From Lachnospiraceae bacterium (GTDB lineage Bacteria; Bacillota; Clostridia; Lachnospirales; Lachnospiraceae), in assembly GCA_029063085.1 (NCBI GenBank), contig JAIDOW010000098.1, positions 1-57,425 on the forward strand: 57,425 nucleotides of DNA, written 5' to 3'. Below the pieces are notes generated by a model. It had not been told where the DNA came from and searched no databases. It was given only the letters and a program-made list of their open reading frames with translations. Each line of letters begins with the position of its first letter. The first letter of the stretch is position 1. Position numbers and translations under genes: made by a program. Positions 17,097 to 25,129 of the stretch are shown here, piece after piece.

Positions 17097-17311
17097 ATGG
17101 TTCTGTTTGTGCATTTAATTTTGCCATGGCATTGTTCATGAAGTTTTTTGTTTTGTTGATTTGAACTGTACTACCTGACTATAAAGAAAGAATTATTGTG
17201 TATATGGAGTTAGCCATATTTCATTATCTTTTGATATCGTTCAGATAGTGCAGTTTTTTATTGTTTATAGTGAAACGCTAAATAAATTTTTCTATCTTTA
17301 TATAAGTTTCC

Positions 17312-17356
17312 GCAAGTCCTACAAATCCTTATTTTATGCGGTTTGTAGGACTTTGC
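17312..17356. terminator. Hairpin, possible bidirectional terminator near the element's left end
   Basis: GCAAGTCCTACAAA pairs with TTTGTAGGACTTTGC through a 12-bp perfect core plus a bulged end. There is a T-poor tail on both strands, so it may instead be an attachment-site structure. Confidence 0.5.
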
Positions 17357-17411
17357 TTTATGGAAAGTTTTATGTATCTCCTTATATCTGGCACATAAAG
17401 CCACTGACGGA

Positions 17412-17432
17412 AGTTGTAAAAAAAGTTGTAAA
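17412..17432. repeat. Left integrase arm-type repeats
   Basis: AGTTGTAAA occurs twice, 12 bases apart, directly beyond the integrase stop. The same pair occurs near the opposite end of the element. Confidence 0.6.
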
Positions 17433-17440
17433 TCTTGTTT

Positions 17441-18634
17441 TTATCCTCTCCATGTCGTTATTGCCGATTTAGCCGATTCCGATGAACCATGTGCATAATA
17501 TCCTAACGTAGTGACAATACTTTCATGCCCCATAATCTTTTGCAAATCGGCAGGTGACAACTCTTTATTCTTTGCCATGTTCGTACAAAATGTATGCCTT
17601 AAAATATGTGGGGATATTTTCGGCAACTGTTCTTCATTGTGCTTGTTGTACTTCTTTATCATAGCTGAAAATTCTGTTGCATATGCCACACCATACATAG
17701 GCAAGCCTTTTTTATTTAAGAATATAAAATCGGAATGTCCGTTTATTTTTACAGGCTGTGCATTTTCCCTGTTCTGCATTTCGTCCTTTATGGCTTTTAA
17801 TGCAAAATCCGTCATAGGGATTTCCCTCACTCCTGCTTTCGTTTTCGGTGGCTCTATACGGTATGTGCCATTCTCAAATATTAGCTGATGGCTGACATGG
17901 ATATATCCGTTTTCAAAATCAATATCTTTTACCTCCAGACCGCAAAGCTCCGATATACGCAATCCTGTATTCAATAAGAGCATAACCACATTGTAAAGTT
18001 TTCGGTAGGTTTTATCTGTCTGCGAAAATGACAACAGCTTATCTGCCTGCTCATTTGTCAATGCTATCTTTGATTCTGTGTCGTTTTCAATCACATCTTC
18101 CAGATTCCAGTTAAAAGGGTTTTTCCGTATGAAGTCATCTTGCATTGCGGTATAAAAGATGGCTTTCAAAAACCGTTTGTGGTTATAAATAGTCTGATAG
18201 GCATACCCTTTTTCTTTCATCCGTATTGCCCATGCCTTAGCGTCACTAGGCTTTACGTTCTTAATCTTCATCTTCCCTATTTTATCAGACTGTAAAATAT
18301 TCAGCAACTGCACCCTGCCCTTTTTTGTGGATTCTCTTACATTGGGATTTAATTCTGTATGCTTTTGGAATAACCTAGATACGGTCATTTCTGCACCAGT
18401 AGAATTTATACCATCCATAAGGTCACGCTGAATCTCCTTTTCTATTTCACGCAGGGGTTTGACTTTCCTTTTGCCTTTTGGGATTTTATCTGCCTTTGTC
18501 AACCGCCATGAGGATTCATATTTCGGCTTTCCGTCTGCCCCTATGTATTTATAAACATACGAGCCATCTTCCCTCTGTGTTTCTCCCTTATATAACTCTC
18601 TGCCTTTGCTGTCTTCTCTTAATTTCTTGCTCAT
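17441..18634 (-). CDS. int: Tyrosine recombinase (Tn916-type integrase)
   Basis: The 397-residue integrase catalyses insertion and excision of the element. It has an N-terminal arm-binding domain with DGSYVYKYIGADGKPKYES (the Tn916 Int fold), a SAM-like core-binding domain (about 85-185) and a catalytic domain. Visible active-site residues are Arg in TGLRISEL, HxxR in HILRHTF, His in GHES and the nucleophile Tyr in LGYYAHG. All look intact. It is preceded on the minus strand by AAAAGGAG. It reads outward toward the left end of the element with xis behind it, the usual arrangement in Tn916-like elements. Confidence 0.95.
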   Translation of the reverse strand: MSKKLREDSKGRELYKGETQREDGSYVYKYIGADGKPKYESSWRLTKADKIPKGKRKVKPLREIEKEIQRDLMDGINSTGAEMTVSRLFQKHTELNPNVRESTKKGRVQLLNILQSDKIGKMKIKNVKPSDAKAWAIRMKEKGYAYQTIYNHKRFLKAIFYTAMQDDFIRKNPFNWNLEDVIENDTESKIALTNEQADKLLSFSQTDKTYRKLYNVVMLLLNTGLRISELCGLEVKDIDFENGYIHVSHQLIFENGTYRIEPPKTKAGVREIPMTDFALKAIKDEMQNRENAQPVKINGHSDFIFLNKKGLPMYGVAYATEFSAMIKKYNKHNEEQLPKISPHILRHTFCTNMAKNKELSPADLQKIMGHESIVTTLGYYAHGSSESAKSAITTWRG

Positions 18635-18708
18635 AATGATTTCTCCTTTTCAGAATAAGGTAGAGCCTTGCCATAAACCATTGCCATATGGCAAGGCTCT
18701 TTAGACGC

Positions 18709-18924
18709 TTATATTTCGTCCTGCTCTGTCAAATACTCCTCAAAAAGCACCCGTTTTATTAACTTGCGATTTCCGTTCTTCAAAATGCATTCGGAAAATT
18801 CCTTACGCTCCGCTATCTCACGCAATTTGTTCTCGCCTATGCCGGAATATTTTGCGGCTTGCTGAAAAGTTAATAAGACCTTATCCTGAATCGGTACTTC
18901 ATCTGATATGTTGTTCTGTAGCAT
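18709..18924 (-). CDS. xis: Excisionase (Xis, winged-helix)
   Basis: The 71-residue protein contains LLTFQQAAKYSGIGENKLRE, a MerR/Xis-like helix-turn-helix, then a basic NGNRKLIKR wing. This matches Tn916-type excisionases in size and sequence pattern. It should bend DNA at the element ends and steer the integrase toward excision. The frame opens at 18984, but GGATGTGAG just upstream of ATG 18924 marks the true start. It lies 74 bases before the integrase gene on the same strand and is likely co-transcribed. Confidence 0.85.
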   Translation of the reverse strand: MLQNNISDEVPIQDKVLLTFQQAAKYSGIGENKLREIAERKEFSECILKNGNRKLIKRVLFEEYLTEQDEI

Positions 18925-19469
18925 GTTCTCACATCCTTTTTTGTTGGAATTAACCAAACAAAAAAAACGATGTCCCAAACGCAAATCCTAATGAAAAATT
19001 AGAATCTGTGTTTGTTACACCGGCATATTATCTGTGATGATACAGAATCTATGTTACCAAACCATCCTTTTTGGTAAAGGGGTTTCCCCCCACGTAGGTA
19101 TCTCCTTTTTAGATACCACCTATGAAATCTTTACGAAATCATCTCCCACACCCATCTGCGTCAGCACCAAATCCGGATGTTGGATATGGTATGGCTGCCT
19201 ACAAACTTTCTGTGTGGGGAAACGGTTACAAACGTTTTTCTTATTTAGTTGTCATTTCAAATATCGGATTTCCCCCAAAAATTTATAATAGTCATAATTC
19301 ACAAAAATAACTTCATGTTTTTGTGCATATATGCCAAAGCAGGAAGATATATCCAACCCATGTAAAGATATATCAAGAAATGCCAACCATGCCGCAGTTT
19401 GATAAAATCGGCTTTCTGTGGTATAAAAAATAGCAGGGCAGAAGACGCTTTCTTTAAAACCGAAAAAAG
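18925..19469. other. Gene-free control region between xis and the replication origin
   Basis: No credible gene. Two hairpins are visible: TTACCAAA/TTTGGTAA near 19054-19078 and GGTATCT/AGATACC at about 19096-19116. The region probably holds divergent promoters for xis/int and rep, but no promoter with good spacing could be chosen. Confidence 0.45.
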
Positions 19470-19750
19470 TGTGTCCCGGTGTCCCATTCCGTTTTAAATG
19501 CAATGCTGGCATGGGTATTAGGGCAGGACACACTTTCCCATCTGTGTCCCATCCTGAATATCCCCATTGTGACAGCCTGCTTTTAAATGCAATACTGGCA
19601 TAGGATTTCGGATCAACATTCGGGACACATATGTGGGGGACACACATTTCTGTATGGTGTCCCATGGCGGCAGAAACACGCACACGCGCGCGCCGTTGCT
19701 ACGGCAAAGAGGCGCGCGCTGATGTGTCCCAATGTGTCCCAATGTCCCAA
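19470..19750. promoter_or_regulatory. GTGTCCC iteron cluster, putative replication origin
   Basis: GTGTCCC or its complement GGGACAC recurs about eight times in 280 bases, on both strands, ending in three tandem copies (GTGTCCCAAT steps) just before rep. In addition, a 28-base imperfect direct repeat (TTTTAAATGCAAT.CTGGCAT) lies at 19492-19519 and 19581-19608. Iterons next to a rep gene usually bind Rep. Confidence 0.65.
19686..19719. promoter_or_regulatory. GC-only hairpin, candidate Rep nick site (dso)
   Basis: GCGCGCGCC (19686-19694) pairs with GGCGCGCGC (19711-19719); the loop can form an inner GCCG/CGGC stem. It is a striking GC island in AT-rich DNA, inside the iteron cluster and 60 bases before rep. 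Rolling-circle Reps nick in the loop of such cruciforms. Confidence 0.55.
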
Positions 19751-19780
19751 AAAAATAAAAAATATGAAAGGAAAAAAACT

Positions 19781-21445
19781 ATGAATCAAAAAAAGAATGA
19801 CGCATTAGCTCCGACAAGCCAAAATGCGCCAAACAACACTACCTCTACAAATTTAACACAGAACCCCCCGAAAAGTCAATCCCCGGATGGCGGCAGGAAA
19901 AAACGCAAGCCTGACGGATGGCTCAATAACCGTAAACCGCTTGTGCTGGGTTCCAAAATTGCCACGCTTGCATTAAAATTATATGTCGAGCAGTTAAAAT
20001 ACGGTTGGGATTATACTTGCAAGCAGATTCAAGCCACAAGCCCGAAAGATTTTCAGGTGGTCGCCATCTGCCATAACCGGGATACATATGCAGACGAGGG
20101 GCATTTCTGGAAACCAGCCATTGAAAAAGAACATTACCATATCATTTTAAGATGTACGGACAGGAAAAAACGGATTCGTGTCCAGAAAGTGCTTAATGAC
20201 CTCGGAATTGAATACAGACCAAATCTGGATGATGAATTATGGGCGAACCACGGTGTTGAAACGGTCGGGAATTTTGCCGGATATTGCACATACCTGACCC
20301 ATGAAACGGAAACAGCAGTCAATGAGGGGAAAGAACTTTATTCAATGGATGAACTTGTCAGCAATTTAACCGTTGATGAAATCCAGAAGATTAGGGATGG
20401 CTATATCAGGGTTGCGGAAAGCAATAAAAAACTTTCCGCTGACGATTGGACTTCGATTGACGAAACCGCTTATAAACTTGGCCATGAACTGAAAAATTTT
20501 TCAGAATGGTATGGCTCACAGCCTTTTAACGTGCGCAGTAATACCAAAATTAAAACAATCCGTGAAAGCTATGAGAGGGGCGTGGATGACCGGATTAGTG
20601 AGGGCGCAGAAATGCTCCGCCTGTGCGTTTTCATTCATGGGGAACCCAACAGCGGAAAAACTTATGCGTCCGAAAAGGCATTGTCCGGCAAACGGTATCT
20701 CACAGTCAAAGGCGGCGGAACCGGGAAATTTGACAACCTCCGGGTAGACCATCAGGCGATTATTATTGATGATGATATTTGCCCCAACCTGTTAAACATG
20801 ACGGATAACTATATCTGCCGGGCATATAAAAGGCAGAACAACAACCCGGCATGGACAGGGCGGTATTTCATTGTCACAAGCAATTATACGTTTGACGAAT
20901 GGATTAAAATGTGCAAACTTGGGGAAAAGCATTTTGAAGCGGCACATTCCCGGTTTTACCTGTGTGAAATCAGGCAGAAAGAGGATGGCACAAACTACCT
21001 TGCATTGAGAAGTCCGTCAACCAGGGGTTCATTTGAACAGCAGGAACAAAGGGCGGAAATGTTTAGGGATTTTCAGGAGAAGTTCAACCAAACAATGGCC
21101 TGCTACCATCCAACGTCCAACACATTTGACTACAGCAGTATGATTGATGATTCATTTACAGCCATGGAAGAAGTGGAAGAAGAAACCGAAAGCATGGCAG
21201 GATATGCCGGGTTCGGGAATGTGGCAATGAGCGAAAAACTCCCCTGCGGAAATCCATATAATCCATACCTCAATATGAATATCCTTTCCGGCGAAACAGT
21301 AGAGGGAATGACAGCGGCTTGCAAATATTTCGGCGCATGTGGGGAATGCACTTTCCATTCTGACGAAAAAGAATGCCCCTACAAAATGGGGAATGTCAAT
21401 CTGGCTGTCAAAGAATACACCCCGGAAACTGTGAGGGATTATTAA
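19781..21445 (+). CDS. rep: Replication initiator: HUH nickase + superfamily 3 helicase (CRESS-like Rep)
   Basis: The 554-residue protein has two domains. The N-terminal nickase (about 55-180) has the metal-binding HYH (118-120) followed by hydrophobic IILR, and candidate nucleophile tyrosines Y168 and Y171 in GYCTYLTHE. The C-terminal helicase has Walker A GEPNSGKT (287-294), Walker B IIIDDD (327-332) and motif C FIVTSN (363-368) in the spacing of superfamily 3. This is the architecture of Reps from CRESS-DNA viruses and related bacterial plasmids. The C-terminus carries a Cys-rich patch (CKYFGACGECTFHS..CPY) that could bind zinc. The first 50 residues are low-complexity. AAAGGA sets ATG 19781. 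It likely lets the excised circle replicate by rolling circle. Confidence 0.85.
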   Translation: MNQKKNDALAPTSQNAPNNTTSTNLTQNPPKSQSPDGGRKKRKPDGWLNNRKPLVLGSKIATLALKLYVEQLKYGWDYTCKQIQATSPKDFQVVAICHNRDTYADEGHFWKPAIEKEHYHIILRCTDRKKRIRVQKVLNDLGIEYRPNLDDELWANHGVETVGNFAGYCTYLTHETETAVNEGKELYSMDELVSNLTVDEIQKIRDGYIRVAESNKKLSADDWTSIDETAYKLGHELKNFSEWYGSQPFNVRSNTKIKTIRESYERGVDDRISEGAEMLRLCVFIHGEPNSGKTYASEKALSGKRYLTVKGGGTGKFDNLRVDHQAIIIDDDICPNLLNMTDNYICRAYKRQNNNPAWTGRYFIVTSNYTFDEWIKMCKLGEKHFEAAHSRFYLCEIRQKEDGTNYLALRSPSTRGSFEQQEQRAEMFRDFQEKFNQTMACYHPTSNTFDYSSMIDDSFTAMEEVEEETESMAGYAGFGNVAMSEKLPCGNPYNPYLNMNILSGETVEGMTAACKYFGACGECTFHSDEKECPYKMGNVNLAVKEYTPETVRDY

Positions 21446-21589
21446 ACAGGAATCCGGCAAAAGAATTTTATCAGGAACAGACCGGACAGAAATAGATCCC
21501 AACATTTTGTTAAGTCCTATTTTTATTTTATCGTAACAGGGATATGGGGGCAGTATTCCAGTCCCCCTATATGCTCACATAAAAATATT

Positions 21590-21622
21590 AAAGGATAACC
21601 CTTTGTAAGATGGTTATCCTTT
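21590..21622. terminator. Bidirectional terminator between rep and the Ig-like gene
   Basis: AAAGGATAACC (21590-21600) pairs perfectly with GGTTATCCTTT (21612-21622). It is flanked by T-rich tails on both strands and lies between two convergent genes. Confidence 0.8.
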
Positions 21623-21628
21623 ATTTGC

Positions 21629-22267
21629 TTATTTACGAACACCGCATTTCTCGCAGTATTCGTATGTTTTTGTAACAGTCTTAGTGACGTCAACGTCAGA
21701 GAAGCTACCGTGACCGTGTTCATGGTTGAGACCAGCTGCAATTCGGTGTTCGTGCCAGTCTTCGCTGTTTTCAAATATTTCACCACAAGCACACTGACAA
21801 CCTATCACTGTCACTTCTTCGTCAACAGATTTTGTTACCCATTTATGCTGACAAGTCGTGTTACTGTTATCAGTATTACTGTTATTTTCATCAGTATTAC
21901 GATTCGGCTTATTGCTGGTATTCTTGCGAGTATCTTTCACAGTAACTTTGCATTTCAAAGTTCTGTTCCCAACTTTCGCTTTTACAACAGCACTACCCTT
22001 TTTCTTTGCAGTAACTTTGCCTTTCGCAGATACTGTGACTACTTTCTTATTAGAAGAAGTCCATTTCACTTTCTTCCCAGCAGTGTTCTTCACTTTTAAC
22101 TGGACAGTCGGCTTTGTCTTTTTCTTTGTGATAGTCAAAGTCACTTTGGACTTGTTCAACTTCGGTGCTTTCTTCGTAGCCGCCTCGGCAGTCACAGGCA
22201 TAGCCAGTGTAAGCATGATTGCAAATACAGTGATAACTGTGATTGATTTTCTGATGATGTTCTTCAT
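21629..22267 (-). CDS. Secreted Ig-like (BIG2) protein with Cys/His-rich tail
   Basis: The 212-residue cargo protein has a signal peptide (MKNIIRKS, a hydrophobic core, cleavage after VTAEA). It is followed by a lysine-rich bacterial Ig-like domain (about 30-115) with the family pattern VKWTSSNKKVVTVSAKGKVT. An Asn/Thr linker leads to a C-terminal domain (about 140-212) with paired CxC/CxxC and many His (CQHKW, CQCACGEIF, HEHGHG, CEKCG), which may bind a metal. The start ATG 22267 follows GAAAGGGG; the longer frame to 22336 lacks a signal at its start. It sits between rep and mob and is not a usual mobility gene. Confidence 0.75.
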   Translation of the reverse strand: MKNIIRKSITVITVFAIMLTLAMPVTAEAATKKAPKLNKSKVTLTITKKKTKPTVQLKVKNTAGKKVKWTSSNKKVVTVSAKGKVTAKKKGSAVVKAKVGNRTLKCKVTVKDTRKNTSNKPNRNTDENNSNTDNSNTTCQHKWVTKSVDEEVTVIGCQCACGEIFENSEDWHEHRIAAGLNHEHGHGSFSDVDVTKTVTKTYEYCEKCGVRK

Positions 22268-22772
22268 AATGAATCCCCTTTCTTTGGTATATGCTAAATA
22301 TTCATTTTTGTGAAAAAATTCGTCATTTTTCGACATATATTAGCTTGATTAAAAATTATACTCTCTTTTATCAGTTTTGTCCATTTCAAAATCAGTTCCT
22401 TTCTATTTTTACTTTTGCACCCGCTCCCTTAATTATAGCCTAACGCAATAGATACAGAATAAGTGAAAAGAGATACAGAACCGGGGCAATAATTCCCCAC
22501 CGCAGAGGTGGGGAAAAGCAAGGGTCAAGGGAGTGCAACTCCTTGCAAAATTATCTAAATACACTTGTGAATTTAGATGTATTTTGCTACAGCGAACGGA
22601 ACGAGATACTTTTTCGGGAAAGAAATAACCTACCGCCATAGACAGCACAACTTGGCAAAAGCCAGAAAATAACCGGACAAATAAATACAGAAAAAATCAA
22701 AAAAAATACTTGACAAGGCATTGTATTCTGAAAATTCTGATGTATCATTAAGGTATAATAAGAAGAAATGAG
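22268..22772. promoter_or_regulatory. Gene-free region with hairpins: candidate oriT / single-strand origin
   Basis: Three stem-loops stand in a row: TTCCCCACC/GGTGGGGAA (22493-22515), CAAGGGAGT/ACTCCTTG with a bulge (about 22526-22544) and ATCTAAAT/ATTTAGAT (22553-22578). MobV-type relaxases usually nick just upstream of their own gene, so the transfer origin is expected here. TATAAT at 22754-22759 may be the -10 of mob; a TTGACA at 22710-22715 is too far away to pair with it. No nick sequence is recognised. Confidence 0.5.
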
Positions 22773-24110
22773 GTGGTTAAAATTGGTTATTTATCATTTG
22801 ACGCCAGTGTAAAAATCCATTATTCCGGCAAATACACAAGCACAAAAACAAATAAATCTGGAAATATGGGGATTGCCGGATATATCCGGCATATTGACAG
22901 AGCTACAGATAAAATGAATGGATGTGAGGTACAGCATAGCAACCCTGATATAAATTCTGACCTCACATTAGAAAACGAATCCTATTATAAAGATTCTAAC
23001 GGGGAATGGCAGAGAACAAGCCACTCTAAAGATATGGTAAATGCAATTAACAGACGTATTGAATACGCAAAAGAGCATGGGGCAAGGATTTCCACAAAAG
23101 GAAAAAATGATGCAGTGATTGTCCGTCCGCTTGTCCTGCAAATGGATAATGATTCAATTACAGGACATGAAAATACATGGATGTGGGATTTAATTGGGAT
23201 TCTTGAAGAACAGTTCGGAAAAGAAAATATCACTGGTTTTTCAACACATAAAGACGAAACAAATCCTCAAAATCCGCATATTCATGTTTGCTTTGTCCCT
23301 TGCCACGAAAAGGACAAAGACGGTGAAGTGAAATGTTCTATTTCACAAACTAAGTTCTTCAAAAACCCGAAACAATTAGCCGGGTTACATAATAAATTCC
23401 GTAAAGCCTTACTGGATAAAGGCTACGACATTGAATTAGAAAACAAGCCGATTGAGGAACAGCTTGCCGGGTATTATGATAAAAACGGTGAGTGGCACCA
23501 ACAAGGCTTAACCCCAGACCAACTCAAAGAGTTGACTGATAGAGAATTAAATTTAAGAATGGAGATGGTTAAAATGAAATATAAACAATCCGAACTGGAT
23601 ATGCTTGAAAAAGCACTTTCCGATATGATGAAATCGACAAAAGCTAAACAGGAAGAAATGGAAAAAGAGCATGAGAAAGAGCTTGAAACTCTTCATTTAC
23701 AGCAGACTGCCCTTGATAATGAAAAGGTACGCTCACAGGCGGCTGTTCTGCTTAGGGAAATGAACGCAAAGAAAAGAGAAATGGAAACGGAAGAAATGTT
23801 TGAAAATATCTGTGCAACCGCTGAAATCTGCTTCCGTATTTTAAAAGAAAAGAATGAACTGAACCCGGACTTCTTGGAGTATTTAGGAAAAGAGGGGGAA
23901 AAAAGAGGAAAGCCTTTCCGCAGGTTTGTGGAAATCTGGCATAAGAATTTTCTGGATGAATACAGCGAAAAAATTTCAGAAGATGATTCAGACCTGCAAA
24001 TGGAACTGAAACATTGTGTGAATAAATTGTTGAAACAGAAAAATGAGGAAACACGCAGTTTTCCAGATACCAGCGATATTAAACGCACAGGCTGTGAATT
24101 TTTATTTTAG
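22773..24110 (+). CDS. MobV-like relaxase (Mob/Pre family)
   Basis: The protein (445 residues) should nick the element at oriT and pilot the strand to a recipient through a helper's conjugation pore. The N-terminal relaxase domain has motif I around HSNPDIN (55-61) and the metal-binding motif H159-K-D161-E162 ... P168-H169-I-H171. The spacing DE-(6)-HxH is about three residues longer than the common HxDExxPHxH. From about 250 on, the protein is a long charged coiled coil (EMEKEHEKELETLHLQQ region), typical for MobV C-termini. The start is GTG 22773, overlapping a GAGGTGG ribosome site, so an ATT start a few codons later cannot be excluded. Confidence 0.85.
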   Translation: MVKIGYLSFDASVKIHYSGKYTSTKTNKSGNMGIAGYIRHIDRATDKMNGCEVQHSNPDINSDLTLENESYYKDSNGEWQRTSHSKDMVNAINRRIEYAKEHGARISTKGKNDAVIVRPLVLQMDNDSITGHENTWMWDLIGILEEQFGKENITGFSTHKDETNPQNPHIHVCFVPCHEKDKDGEVKCSISQTKFFKNPKQLAGLHNKFRKALLDKGYDIELENKPIEEQLAGYYDKNGEWHQQGLTPDQLKELTDRELNLRMEMVKMKYKQSELDMLEKALSDMMKSTKAKQEEMEKEHEKELETLHLQQTALDNEKVRSQAAVLLREMNAKKREMETEEMFENICATAEICFRILKEKNELNPDFLEYLGKEGEKRGKPFRRFVEIWHKNFLDEYSEKISEDDSDLQMELKHCVNKLLKQKNEETRSFPDTSDIKRTGCEFLF

Positions 24111-24158
24111 GATAACAGCCTATAATGCAGGACTTTTCTTTCACATATCGTTAAGAGC

Positions 24159-24197
24159 AAACATGACCCACGATACGGAGTATCGTGGATCATGTTT
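24159..24197. terminator. Terminator after mob
   Basis: AACATGACCCACGATAC pairs with GTATCGTGGATCATGTT (one mismatch) around a GGA loop. A TTGTTT tail follows on the plus strand. It lies between convergent genes. Confidence 0.75.
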
Positions 24198-24219
24198 GTT
24201 TATGGAAGGCTCTTTCCCC

Positions 24220-24411
24220 TCAAAATACATACTTCATAACGTCTTGGATAATAGCACCGTAACTGTCGCCCTCAATATTGACTTTCCTTGTTCCATTGCC
24301 TTTAAAGGTAATCAATGCGTGGTTATCATCCATAAGGGATAGACCGATAATGTCAAGGTTTGCAGATACAAGCGTTAATTCAAAAACCTTTATAAATTCT
24401 GTTTTGCTCAT
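24220..24411 (-). CDS. Small conserved hypothetical protein of mobile elements
   Basis: The 63-residue protein (MSKTEFIKVFELTLVSAN... ending in MKYVF) has alternating strands and helices and no known motif. Its short size and place between mob and the DnaJ-like gene suggest an accessory of the element. ATG 24411 is chosen; the earlier ATG at 24423 directly touches the AAAGG ribosome site. It lies 18 bases after the stop of the DnaJ-like gene on the same strand, so the two probably form an operon. No function can be assigned. Confidence 0.6.
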   Translation of the reverse strand: MSKTEFIKVFELTLVSANLDIIGLSLMDDNHALITFKGNGTRKVNIEGDSYGAIIQDVMKYVF

Positions 24412-24429
24412 AGTCCCCCACATCCTTTC

Positions 24430-24906
24430 TTAGCCGATTGCGTACTGTTTTGATTTGCTGCTGACTTTCTTAGAACCGTACTTCTGCCGGATTTCCTCAA
24501 GAGATGACTCGCCTTTGCGATAGCGGTAATCCCCATAGTGAAAACACCAACACTTCTTCTTAGGGGCAAACCGACAACCGACAGATTTCAATAACTCTCT
24601 GTACTCATATCCTCCATGTACCCATATCCACGAACCAATAATTTCTATATCTGCATTGATGTGGATAATCTTGTTTAAAACCTCTTTAAATGCGTCATTT
24701 TCGGCTTTGTAATCGTACTTGGGGTTTTCCTCACCTGATTGCTTTTCATGGCTTAAAACCTCAAATAAACGGTCATATTCAGCGTTAATCTCTTGTGTGA
24801 TTTCCACGCTACCACCCTCATTATCTGGATGATATTTCTTTAATAATTCTCTGTACCGTTGGCGCAATTCCTCAATGCTTTTTACATCCTCAAAATATTT
24901 ATTCAT
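24430..24906 (-). CDS. DnaJ-domain protein of the element
   Basis: The 158-residue protein has an N-terminal J-domain whose hallmark HPD is in YRELLKKYHPDNEGG (about residues 18-32). A second domain follows with IIGSWIWVHGGYEYRELLKSVGCRF and a KKKCWCFHYGDYRYR segment, seen in DnaJ-like proteins of clostridial mobile elements. J-proteins recruit Hsp70; here it may help remodel Rep or Mob complexes, which is inference. The start ATG 24906 follows AAAAGGAG; the longer frame begins at 24951. There are no zinc-finger or C-terminal chaperone domains, so it is not the housekeeping DnaJ. Confidence 0.75.
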   Translation of the reverse strand: MNKYFEDVKSIEELRQRYRELLKKYHPDNEGGSVEITQEINAEYDRLFEVLSHEKQSGEENPKYDYKAENDAFKEVLNKIIHINADIEIIGSWIWVHGGYEYRELLKSVGCRFAPKKKCWCFHYGDYRYRKGESSLEEIRQKYGSKKVSSKSKQYAIG

Positions 24907-24972
24907 CTGCCTGTACTCCTTTTTTAAAAAGCACCCGACTATTGATTTCATAACTTGGAAAAGGGTATAAAA

Positions 24973-25008
24973 AATGGACTACCCGATTTAAAATCGGATA
25001 ATCCATTT
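24973..25008 (-). terminator. Hairpin at the element's right end (minus-strand terminator)
   Basis: ATGGACTACCCGATTT pairs with AAATCGGATAATCCAT (two mismatches). On the minus strand it is followed by TTTTTTATA, so it would stop transcription entering the element from the right. It may insulate the DnaJ-like operon. Confidence 0.6.
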
Positions 25009-25020
25009 GGTAAATGCAGA

Positions 25021-25040
25021 AGTTGTAAAATAGTTGAAAA
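25021..25040. repeat. Right integrase arm-type repeats
   Basis: AGTTGTAAA (25021-25029) and the variant AGTTGAAAA (25032-25040) mirror the pair at 17412-17432. A further inverted repeat GTAAAATAG/CTATTTTAC spans 25026-25076. The element's right boundary should lie between 25041 and about 25130. Confidence 0.55.
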
Positions 25041-25129
25041 ATTGCCCTTTAAATGCCCGTGAGTGCCTATTTTACAGTATTTTTCAAGAAATCTTTAGCA
25101 TTTATATTTAAAATATAGAGAATTCCATA

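Follow-up and report, generated by a model that had tools for sequence, protein, structure and literature searches.

Rolling-circle initiators (Rep) that join an HUH nuclease to a superfamily 3 (SF3) helicase domain have been described from bacterial replicons as well as from viruses of the circular Rep-encoding single-stranded DNA (CRESS) assemblage. Outside the groups pCRESS7 and 9, 97.5% of the bacterial pCRESS Reps are found in integrated elements (Kazlauskas 2019, PMC6668415), and among streptococcal integrative mobilizable elements (IMEs) 15 were listed as carrying a Rep_2-helicase protein and 10 as combining MobV with a MobT/Rep_trans protein (Coluzzi 2017, PMC5357655). The element described here occupies positions 17264..25104 (ca. 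7.8 kb) of contig JAIDOW010000098.1 from a Lachnospiraceae bacterium (assembly GCA_029063085.1), and the whole stretch of 57,425 nucleotides that was analysed is called the window. We consider it very probable (about 85%) that it is an IME which lives as a rolling-circle plasmid once excised. A preliminary description of the locus had recognized a CRESS-type Rep inside an IME and regarded this Rep plan as reported for a few bacterial plasmids, which understates its occurrence in view of the figures given above.

The rep gene (19781..21445, + strand) encodes a polypeptide of 554 amino acids (P0001). The open reading frame (ORF) is genuine, and every residue named in the preliminary description is found at its position. 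An alternative ATG is located upstream at 19631; the start at 19781 is preferred because a purine-rich site precedes it, because it matches the start in a sister element (locus L002, see below) and because the intervening DNA forms a putative origin. The protein contains an HUH nuclease (res. ~55-195), an SF3 ATPase (~273-440) and a tail with four cysteines (514-532). Domain searches, alignment with pMV158 RepB and structure and profile comparisons confirmed that it is a two-domain rolling-circle initiator, as had been proposed. The nuclease is of the RepB (YLxH) type, and the active-site residues of RepB align to H98, D101, H118, H120, Y171 and Y187. Both tyrosines put forward earlier, Y168 and Y171, are present; the likely catalytic one is Y171, since it aligns with RepB Y99. 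Motif III reads YLTH (171-174). The ATPase has circovirus Rep as its best structural match, and this half of the protein is similar to both circovirus and vientovirus Reps. The HUH and SF3 domains are combined as in CRESS-virus Reps, but within the CRESS assemblage the nuclease half belongs with the plasmids.

Including the window, 11 loci with a related Rep were collected (designated by L numbers; L012 and L005 are on one contig, as are L015 and L006). Eight of them belong to the same family as the window, Lachnospiraceae according to the label of the L002 genome (G668). Motif III is YLxH in 8 of 10 family Reps and YATH in those of L014 and L035. A family profile aligned by hhalign with five plasmid Reps over 274 columns spanning both domains (99.1%, E 7e-19); the Rep of L036 was excluded from this profile and hence from the hhalign comparison, the class and phylum searches and one scan of IMG/VR. 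With Rep_2/Rep_OBD (PF01719) the score was 23.0 bits (24.1 for the L002 Rep), just under the gathering cut-off of 24.6, and the protein is related to this family. Neither the complete Rep nor its helicase portion matched the SF3 family PF00910 ('RNA_helicase') at E values up to 1 and 10, so that the SF3 assignment relies on structure and profile comparison. PHROGs and NCBIfam gave no match for Rep, and the one match in a single-sequence search of the PDB (E 1.2) was judged to be due to chance. In a tree, ten Reps formed one clade (100/100), several of them on long branches, and 3.9 changes per column along one branch set this clade apart from six references, namely five Reps which we call pCPa-like and one of p4M, with no labelled pCRESS4-8 Rep among them. 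The length and long ends of the protein resemble the description of pCRESS4 in PMC8780604, and we assign it to no pCRESS group.

The new contribution of this work, and in our view the most informative part of the locus, is a putative double-strand origin ahead of rep, which is absent from the preliminary description. A predicted nick hairpin (19686..19719, + strand) has a 9-bp stem and the loop GTTGCTACGGCAAAGA, with GCTACGG at 19698-19704. Its DNA fold has a z of −2.9 (2 of 200 shuffles were as good), and an inner 4-bp stem leaves TACG unpaired. A hairpin with arms of at least 7 bp and GCTACGG in the loop stands ahead of the Rep core in 10 of the 11 family loci (window, L002, L003, L004, L011, L012, L013, L014, L035 and L036), and in 9 of these ten the loop extends as GCTACGGC. 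In the eleventh locus, L015, Rep is reduced to roughly its C-terminal third and GCTACGG is absent; this locus was excluded from the loop count and from the tree. When all 7-mers in hairpin loops within 700 bp ahead of the Rep core were counted without selection, GCTACGG was present in 10/10 loci, whereas across 100 shuffled sets the highest value for any 7-mer was 2/10 loci and GCTACGG appeared once in 1000 shuffled regions. In the ten full sequences (186 kb, both strands) the GCTACGG-loop hairpin occurs at one place per locus, ahead of the Rep core and on the rep strand. The count rests on the ten loci in which the loop was discovered, with no fresh intact locus, and searches at the levels of class (391 genomes) and phylum (398 genomes) gave no locus beyond those known. 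The hairpin arms vary among loci, which makes the loop the conserved part; the window and L002 closely copy each other. The hairpin of these two loci and that of L014 fall within the longest open frame but upstream of a better start. The proposed cleavage would be GCTACG/GC in the hairpin loop. This signature was not found described in the open-access literature, searched apart from supplements.

Downstream of the hairpin, three TGTCCC repeats at 19725, 19735 and 19743 (19725..19748, + strand; spacing 10 and 8) form a putative Rep binding site, and more copies in both orientations occur in the upstream part of the putative origin (19470..19680, + strand). The repeats are element-specific: TGTCCC in the window and L002, GTGTCC in L003, GTGTAA in L011 and ACCGGC in L014, all five loci having three copies spaced 10-11 and then 7-9 bp. 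Two copies are present in L004 (spacing 10), L012 (8), L013 (17) and L035 (8), and three in L036 (21 and 10). In L003, L004, L011 and L014 the first copy sits in the 3′ arm of the hairpin. Compared with shuffled sequences, the copy number is rare (≤3/500) in L002, L003, L011 and L014 and not rare in the window (56 per 500), L004 (136), L012 (152), L013 (170), L035 (135) and L036 (41). As a separate observation, no Walker A motif is recognizable in the Rep of L036 (L036:8997-10163), which has the HUH and YLxH motifs and is accompanied by a GCTACGG hairpin; perhaps it is a helicase-less derivative or decayed.

The boundaries of the element, precise to a few bases, were obtained by comparison with the sister element on a contig of Hominisplanchenecus murintestinalis (L002:5803-13770), whose Rep is 81% identical. 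Both carry, in the same order, genes for integrase (Int) and excisionase (Xis), the origin, and genes for Rep, a Big_2 protein, the relaxase (Mob) and a DnaJ-like protein; homology extends from ~17264 to ~25104, beyond which the flanks diverge, and the two insertion sites are unrelated. At the right side, chromosomal homology to the same-genus genome G736 restarts at ~25099, and matches to the right flank in G188 and G737 start further in. A contiguous empty site was not found for the window (the left flank leads to G736:C88 and the right flank to G736:C77, which are separate contigs), so the boundaries rest on L002. By eye, the insertion is flanked by a DUF3021-like gene on one side and by an ABC transporter gene on the other. 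The ends are near-inverted (AAACGCTAAA, 17273-17282; CTTTAGCATTT, 25093-25103) and have no long direct repeat. Such ends would be expected if unequal coupling sequences are left by a Tn916-type integrase. The sister element splits a radC-like gene into two halves, and this gene is uninterrupted in six copies from five genomes, those carrying it among 150 searched. Since the sister copy interrupts the radC-like gene at a different site, the unit moves. Judged by eye from its neighbours, the radC-like gene probably belongs to an integrative and conjugative element (ICE), and if this assignment holds L002 is an IME nested in a conjugative element. The assembly coverage of the L002 contig is given as 442, a lone figure that says nothing on copy number.

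The integration and mobilization genes were as the preliminary description had indicated. Int (397 amino acids, 17441..18634, − strand) exceeds the Pfam cut-offs for PF02920 (1.5e-21) and PF00589 (2.6e-38) and adjoins a Tn916-type Xis (18709..18984, − strand; PF09035, 1.3e-16), which identifies it as a tyrosine integrase of the Tn916 type. The MobV-like relaxase Mob (445 amino acids, 22773..24110, + strand) matches PF01076 (1.7e-11; 44.7 bits, cut-off 25.5); its score with the NCBIfam MobV model (1.2e-17, 64.7 bits) is below the 100-bit cut-off. Seven element proteins were scanned with Pfam and NCBIfam and six of these with PHROGs, and no type IV secretion system protein was found among the seven. 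With its own integrase and relaxase and no mating-pair system among these proteins, the element has the gene content of an IME. One VirD4-type coupling protein is encoded in the same genome (G000:C60).

Upstream of mob, a candidate origin of transfer (oriT) hairpin (22545..22587, + strand) has a DNA fold z of −4.5, with 0/200 shuffles as good, and the alignment read by eye shows the L002 stem altered on both sides. A hairpin 3′ of mob (24158..24198; 19-nt arms, 95% complementary) is retained in L002 and is perhaps a terminator. The cargo Big_2 protein (21629..22336, − strand; PF02368, 1.7e-8) begins with a signal-like segment and is rich in Cys and His at its end; it is the least conserved of six gene products compared (55% amino acid identity to L002). 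A small ORF (24220..24423, − strand) has no family match in Pfam, PHROGs or NCBIfam. The DnaJ-like protein (24430..24951, − strand) matches PF00226 below the cut-off (2.4e-5) and phrog_15863 (2e-39), a family whose function is not known. It is 87% identical to its L002 counterpart, with a ratio of nonsynonymous to synonymous substitution rates (dN/dS) of 0.13, and may assist replication or mobilization.

The Cys-rich C-terminus of Rep that had been pointed out earlier (C514-X5-C520-X2-C523-X8-C532) is present in the window and L002 proteins and in none of the other nine Reps, and thus is no domain shared throughout the family. The tail evolves fast, with a dN/dS between window and L002 of 0.34; the N-terminal extension is similar (0.35), and the Rep core has a value of 0.08. 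A search of the same genome for the tail as a shared domain gave, besides Rep, three look-alikes (E 0.019-0.35), which were rejected; the top-scoring one has a C-X5-C-X2-C cluster and looks, by eye, like an rRNA methyltransferase. Pfam gave one weak match for the L002 tail and none for that of the window, and a literature search on pCRESS, zinc and C-terminal found no paper. The tail is likely a metal-binding add-on.

Such elements are rare, to judge by the counts of Rep in genomes, plasmids and phages. A single-sequence search (E 1e-10) found Rep in 5 of 397 genomes of the family, and profile searches (E 1e-8) in 4 of 392 of the order, 2 of 391 of the class and 1 of 398 of the phylum; each count includes the window's genome, and the genome draws overlap. 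A relative was present in one of 72,556 plasmid records and in none of 50,697 phage records. Three scans of IMG/VR restricted to pattern matches, two of which gave 40 matches each, confirmed no relative. Eight of the 11 loci (window, L002, L003, L012, L013, L014, L015 and L036) have an integrase at most 8 kb away from Rep. A MobV gene is near Rep in the window, L002, L003, L012 and plasmid L011, the Pfam scan of neighbours covering three genes in L014 (one being the integrase) and leaving L004, L015, L035 and L036 outside. The more distant L013 element (L013:8922-17248) encodes a relaxase of the MobQ type together with a VirD4-type coupling protein of its own.

According to the proposed mechanism, Int and Xis would excise the element as a circle. 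Rep would bind the element's own repeats beside the hairpin at 19686-19719, which would extrude, and Y171, with a metal ion held by H98, D101, H118 and H120, would nick the loop at GCTACG/GC and stay on the 5′ end; starting at the 3′ OH, the SF3 ring would unwind the leading strand. Separately, the MobV relaxase would nick an oriT near 22545-22587 and borrow the transfer machine of another conjugative element, and the circle would re-integrate in donor and recipient. The sequence itself shows the genes with their domains and active-site residues, the boundaries relative to the sister copy, the conserved loop and the repeats; excision, re-integration, the position of the nick, binding to the repeats, replication, mobilization and the use of a helper are inferred from these.

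Alternatively, Rep itself could be the transfer relaxase, with the replication origin doubling as oriT and MobV being secondary or serving plasmid recombination. Rel_PF01719-PF00910 proteins were named a putative relaxase superfamily (PMC5357655), Rep proteins of small plasmids serve as relaxases with ICEBs1 (PMC5714925), and p4M and p5GD01 have near rep an FtsK/SpoIIIE-domain gene, a kind interpreted as encoding a coupling protein in Coluzzi 2017. We consider this unlikely, since window and L002 both retain a MobV accompanied by a separate candidate oriT hairpin, and the five loci with MobV near Rep, like L013 with MobQ and a VirD4-type protein, have a canonical relaxase either way; moreover, a TcpA/FtsK-type protein was not found among the seven window proteins and ten neighbours in a neighbour scan that was not exhaustive.

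That the element is a decayed, immobile remnant with its replication functions out of use is less probable still: it is present as one copy in its genome, but all listed genes are open, the hairpin and repeats are complete and the sister copy occupies a different site. Rep, Mob and Int are under purifying selection, the dN/dS of Int and Mob being 0.17 and 0.21 beside the low value of the Rep core. Least of all do we favour a provirus of a CRESS-like bacterial virus, suggested by the viral similarity of the SF3 half, as no capsid family was found in the scanned element proteins, the phage records yielded no relative and the IMG/VR scans of pattern matches confirmed none, and Mob and the existence of a free plasmid relative point to a plasmid.

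Beyond the preferred reading as an excisable rolling-circle plasmid, the origins allow a more tentative proposal, to which we give somewhat less than even odds: that the family retains the cleavage sequence (CTACG/xC) of the helicase-less pMV158 type while its Rep carries an SF3 helicase, its origins consisting of an invariant nick loop and element-specific, Rep-matched repeats at fixed spacing. If so, the family would be a living intermediate that links pMV158-type plasmids with the Reps ancestral to CRESS viruses, recognizable by origin as well as protein; the step from pMV158-type via helicase-bearing Reps to CRESS viruses rests so far on protein comparison (PMC6668415). With a predicted nick sequence, a predicted catalytic residue and repeats that can be exchanged, short oligonucleotides can be used to test the origin of one bacterial group with helicase-bearing Reps, and a compact signature is available for finding such elements.

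Integrated pCRESS plasmids, IMEs with a Rep_2-helicase protein and IMEs combining MobV with a rolling-circle Rep have all been published, so the architecture found here is a variant and no new principle. Similar to the YLxH supergroup pCRESS4-8 (PMC6668415), which usually integrates in chromosomes, the Rep joins HUH to SF3 and has YLxH in motif III; in distinction, its family is a clade separate from the pCPa-like and p4M references. The words integrase, recombinase and 'mobiliz' are absent from the main text of PMC6668415, taken apart from its supplements. The streptococcal IMEs of Class_4 (Rel_PF01719-PF00910, PMC5357655) likewise have a tyrosine integrase and a Rep_2-helicase protein, but there the class lacks MobV and the Rep is read as relaxase; the combination of Rep_2-helicase, MobV and tyrosine integrase is not among the classes in the accessible Table 2 of that paper. 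In the small S. haemolyticus plasmid p4 (L045), a Rep_OBD+RNA_helicase Rep occurs together with what is annotated as a plasmid recombination protein. IMESag-rpsI (Class_10; PMC5090054, PMC5357655), of ~9.5 kb, shares Int, a rolling-circle Rep and MobV, its circular forms were identified by PCR (polymerase chain reaction) and its relaxase is functional, whereas its Rep is a Rep_trans protein (PF02486) and not of the Rep_2-helicase kind. With pMV158 the element shares the RepB nuclease domain and active site; its relaxase is MobV-like, and pMV158 MobM is the prototype of MOBV. The plan of the putative origin also matches that of pMV158, which is nicked in a hairpin loop, at TACTACG/AC, a sequence similar to the loop found here, and has tandem 11-bp repeats to which RepB binds (PMC5030251, PMC9943647). 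Unlike the present Rep, RepB has no helicase activity, the loop here is GCTACGGC, and the element is integrative. Plasmid pRGI00651 (HG796354) has a Rep 46% identical to that of the window, the same loop and a MOBV relaxase, but is a circular plasmid of 3239 bp with three annotated genes, no integrase being among these. This Rep type therefore supports a free plasmid, and it is shared by a free plasmid with MobV and by integrative elements with MobV.
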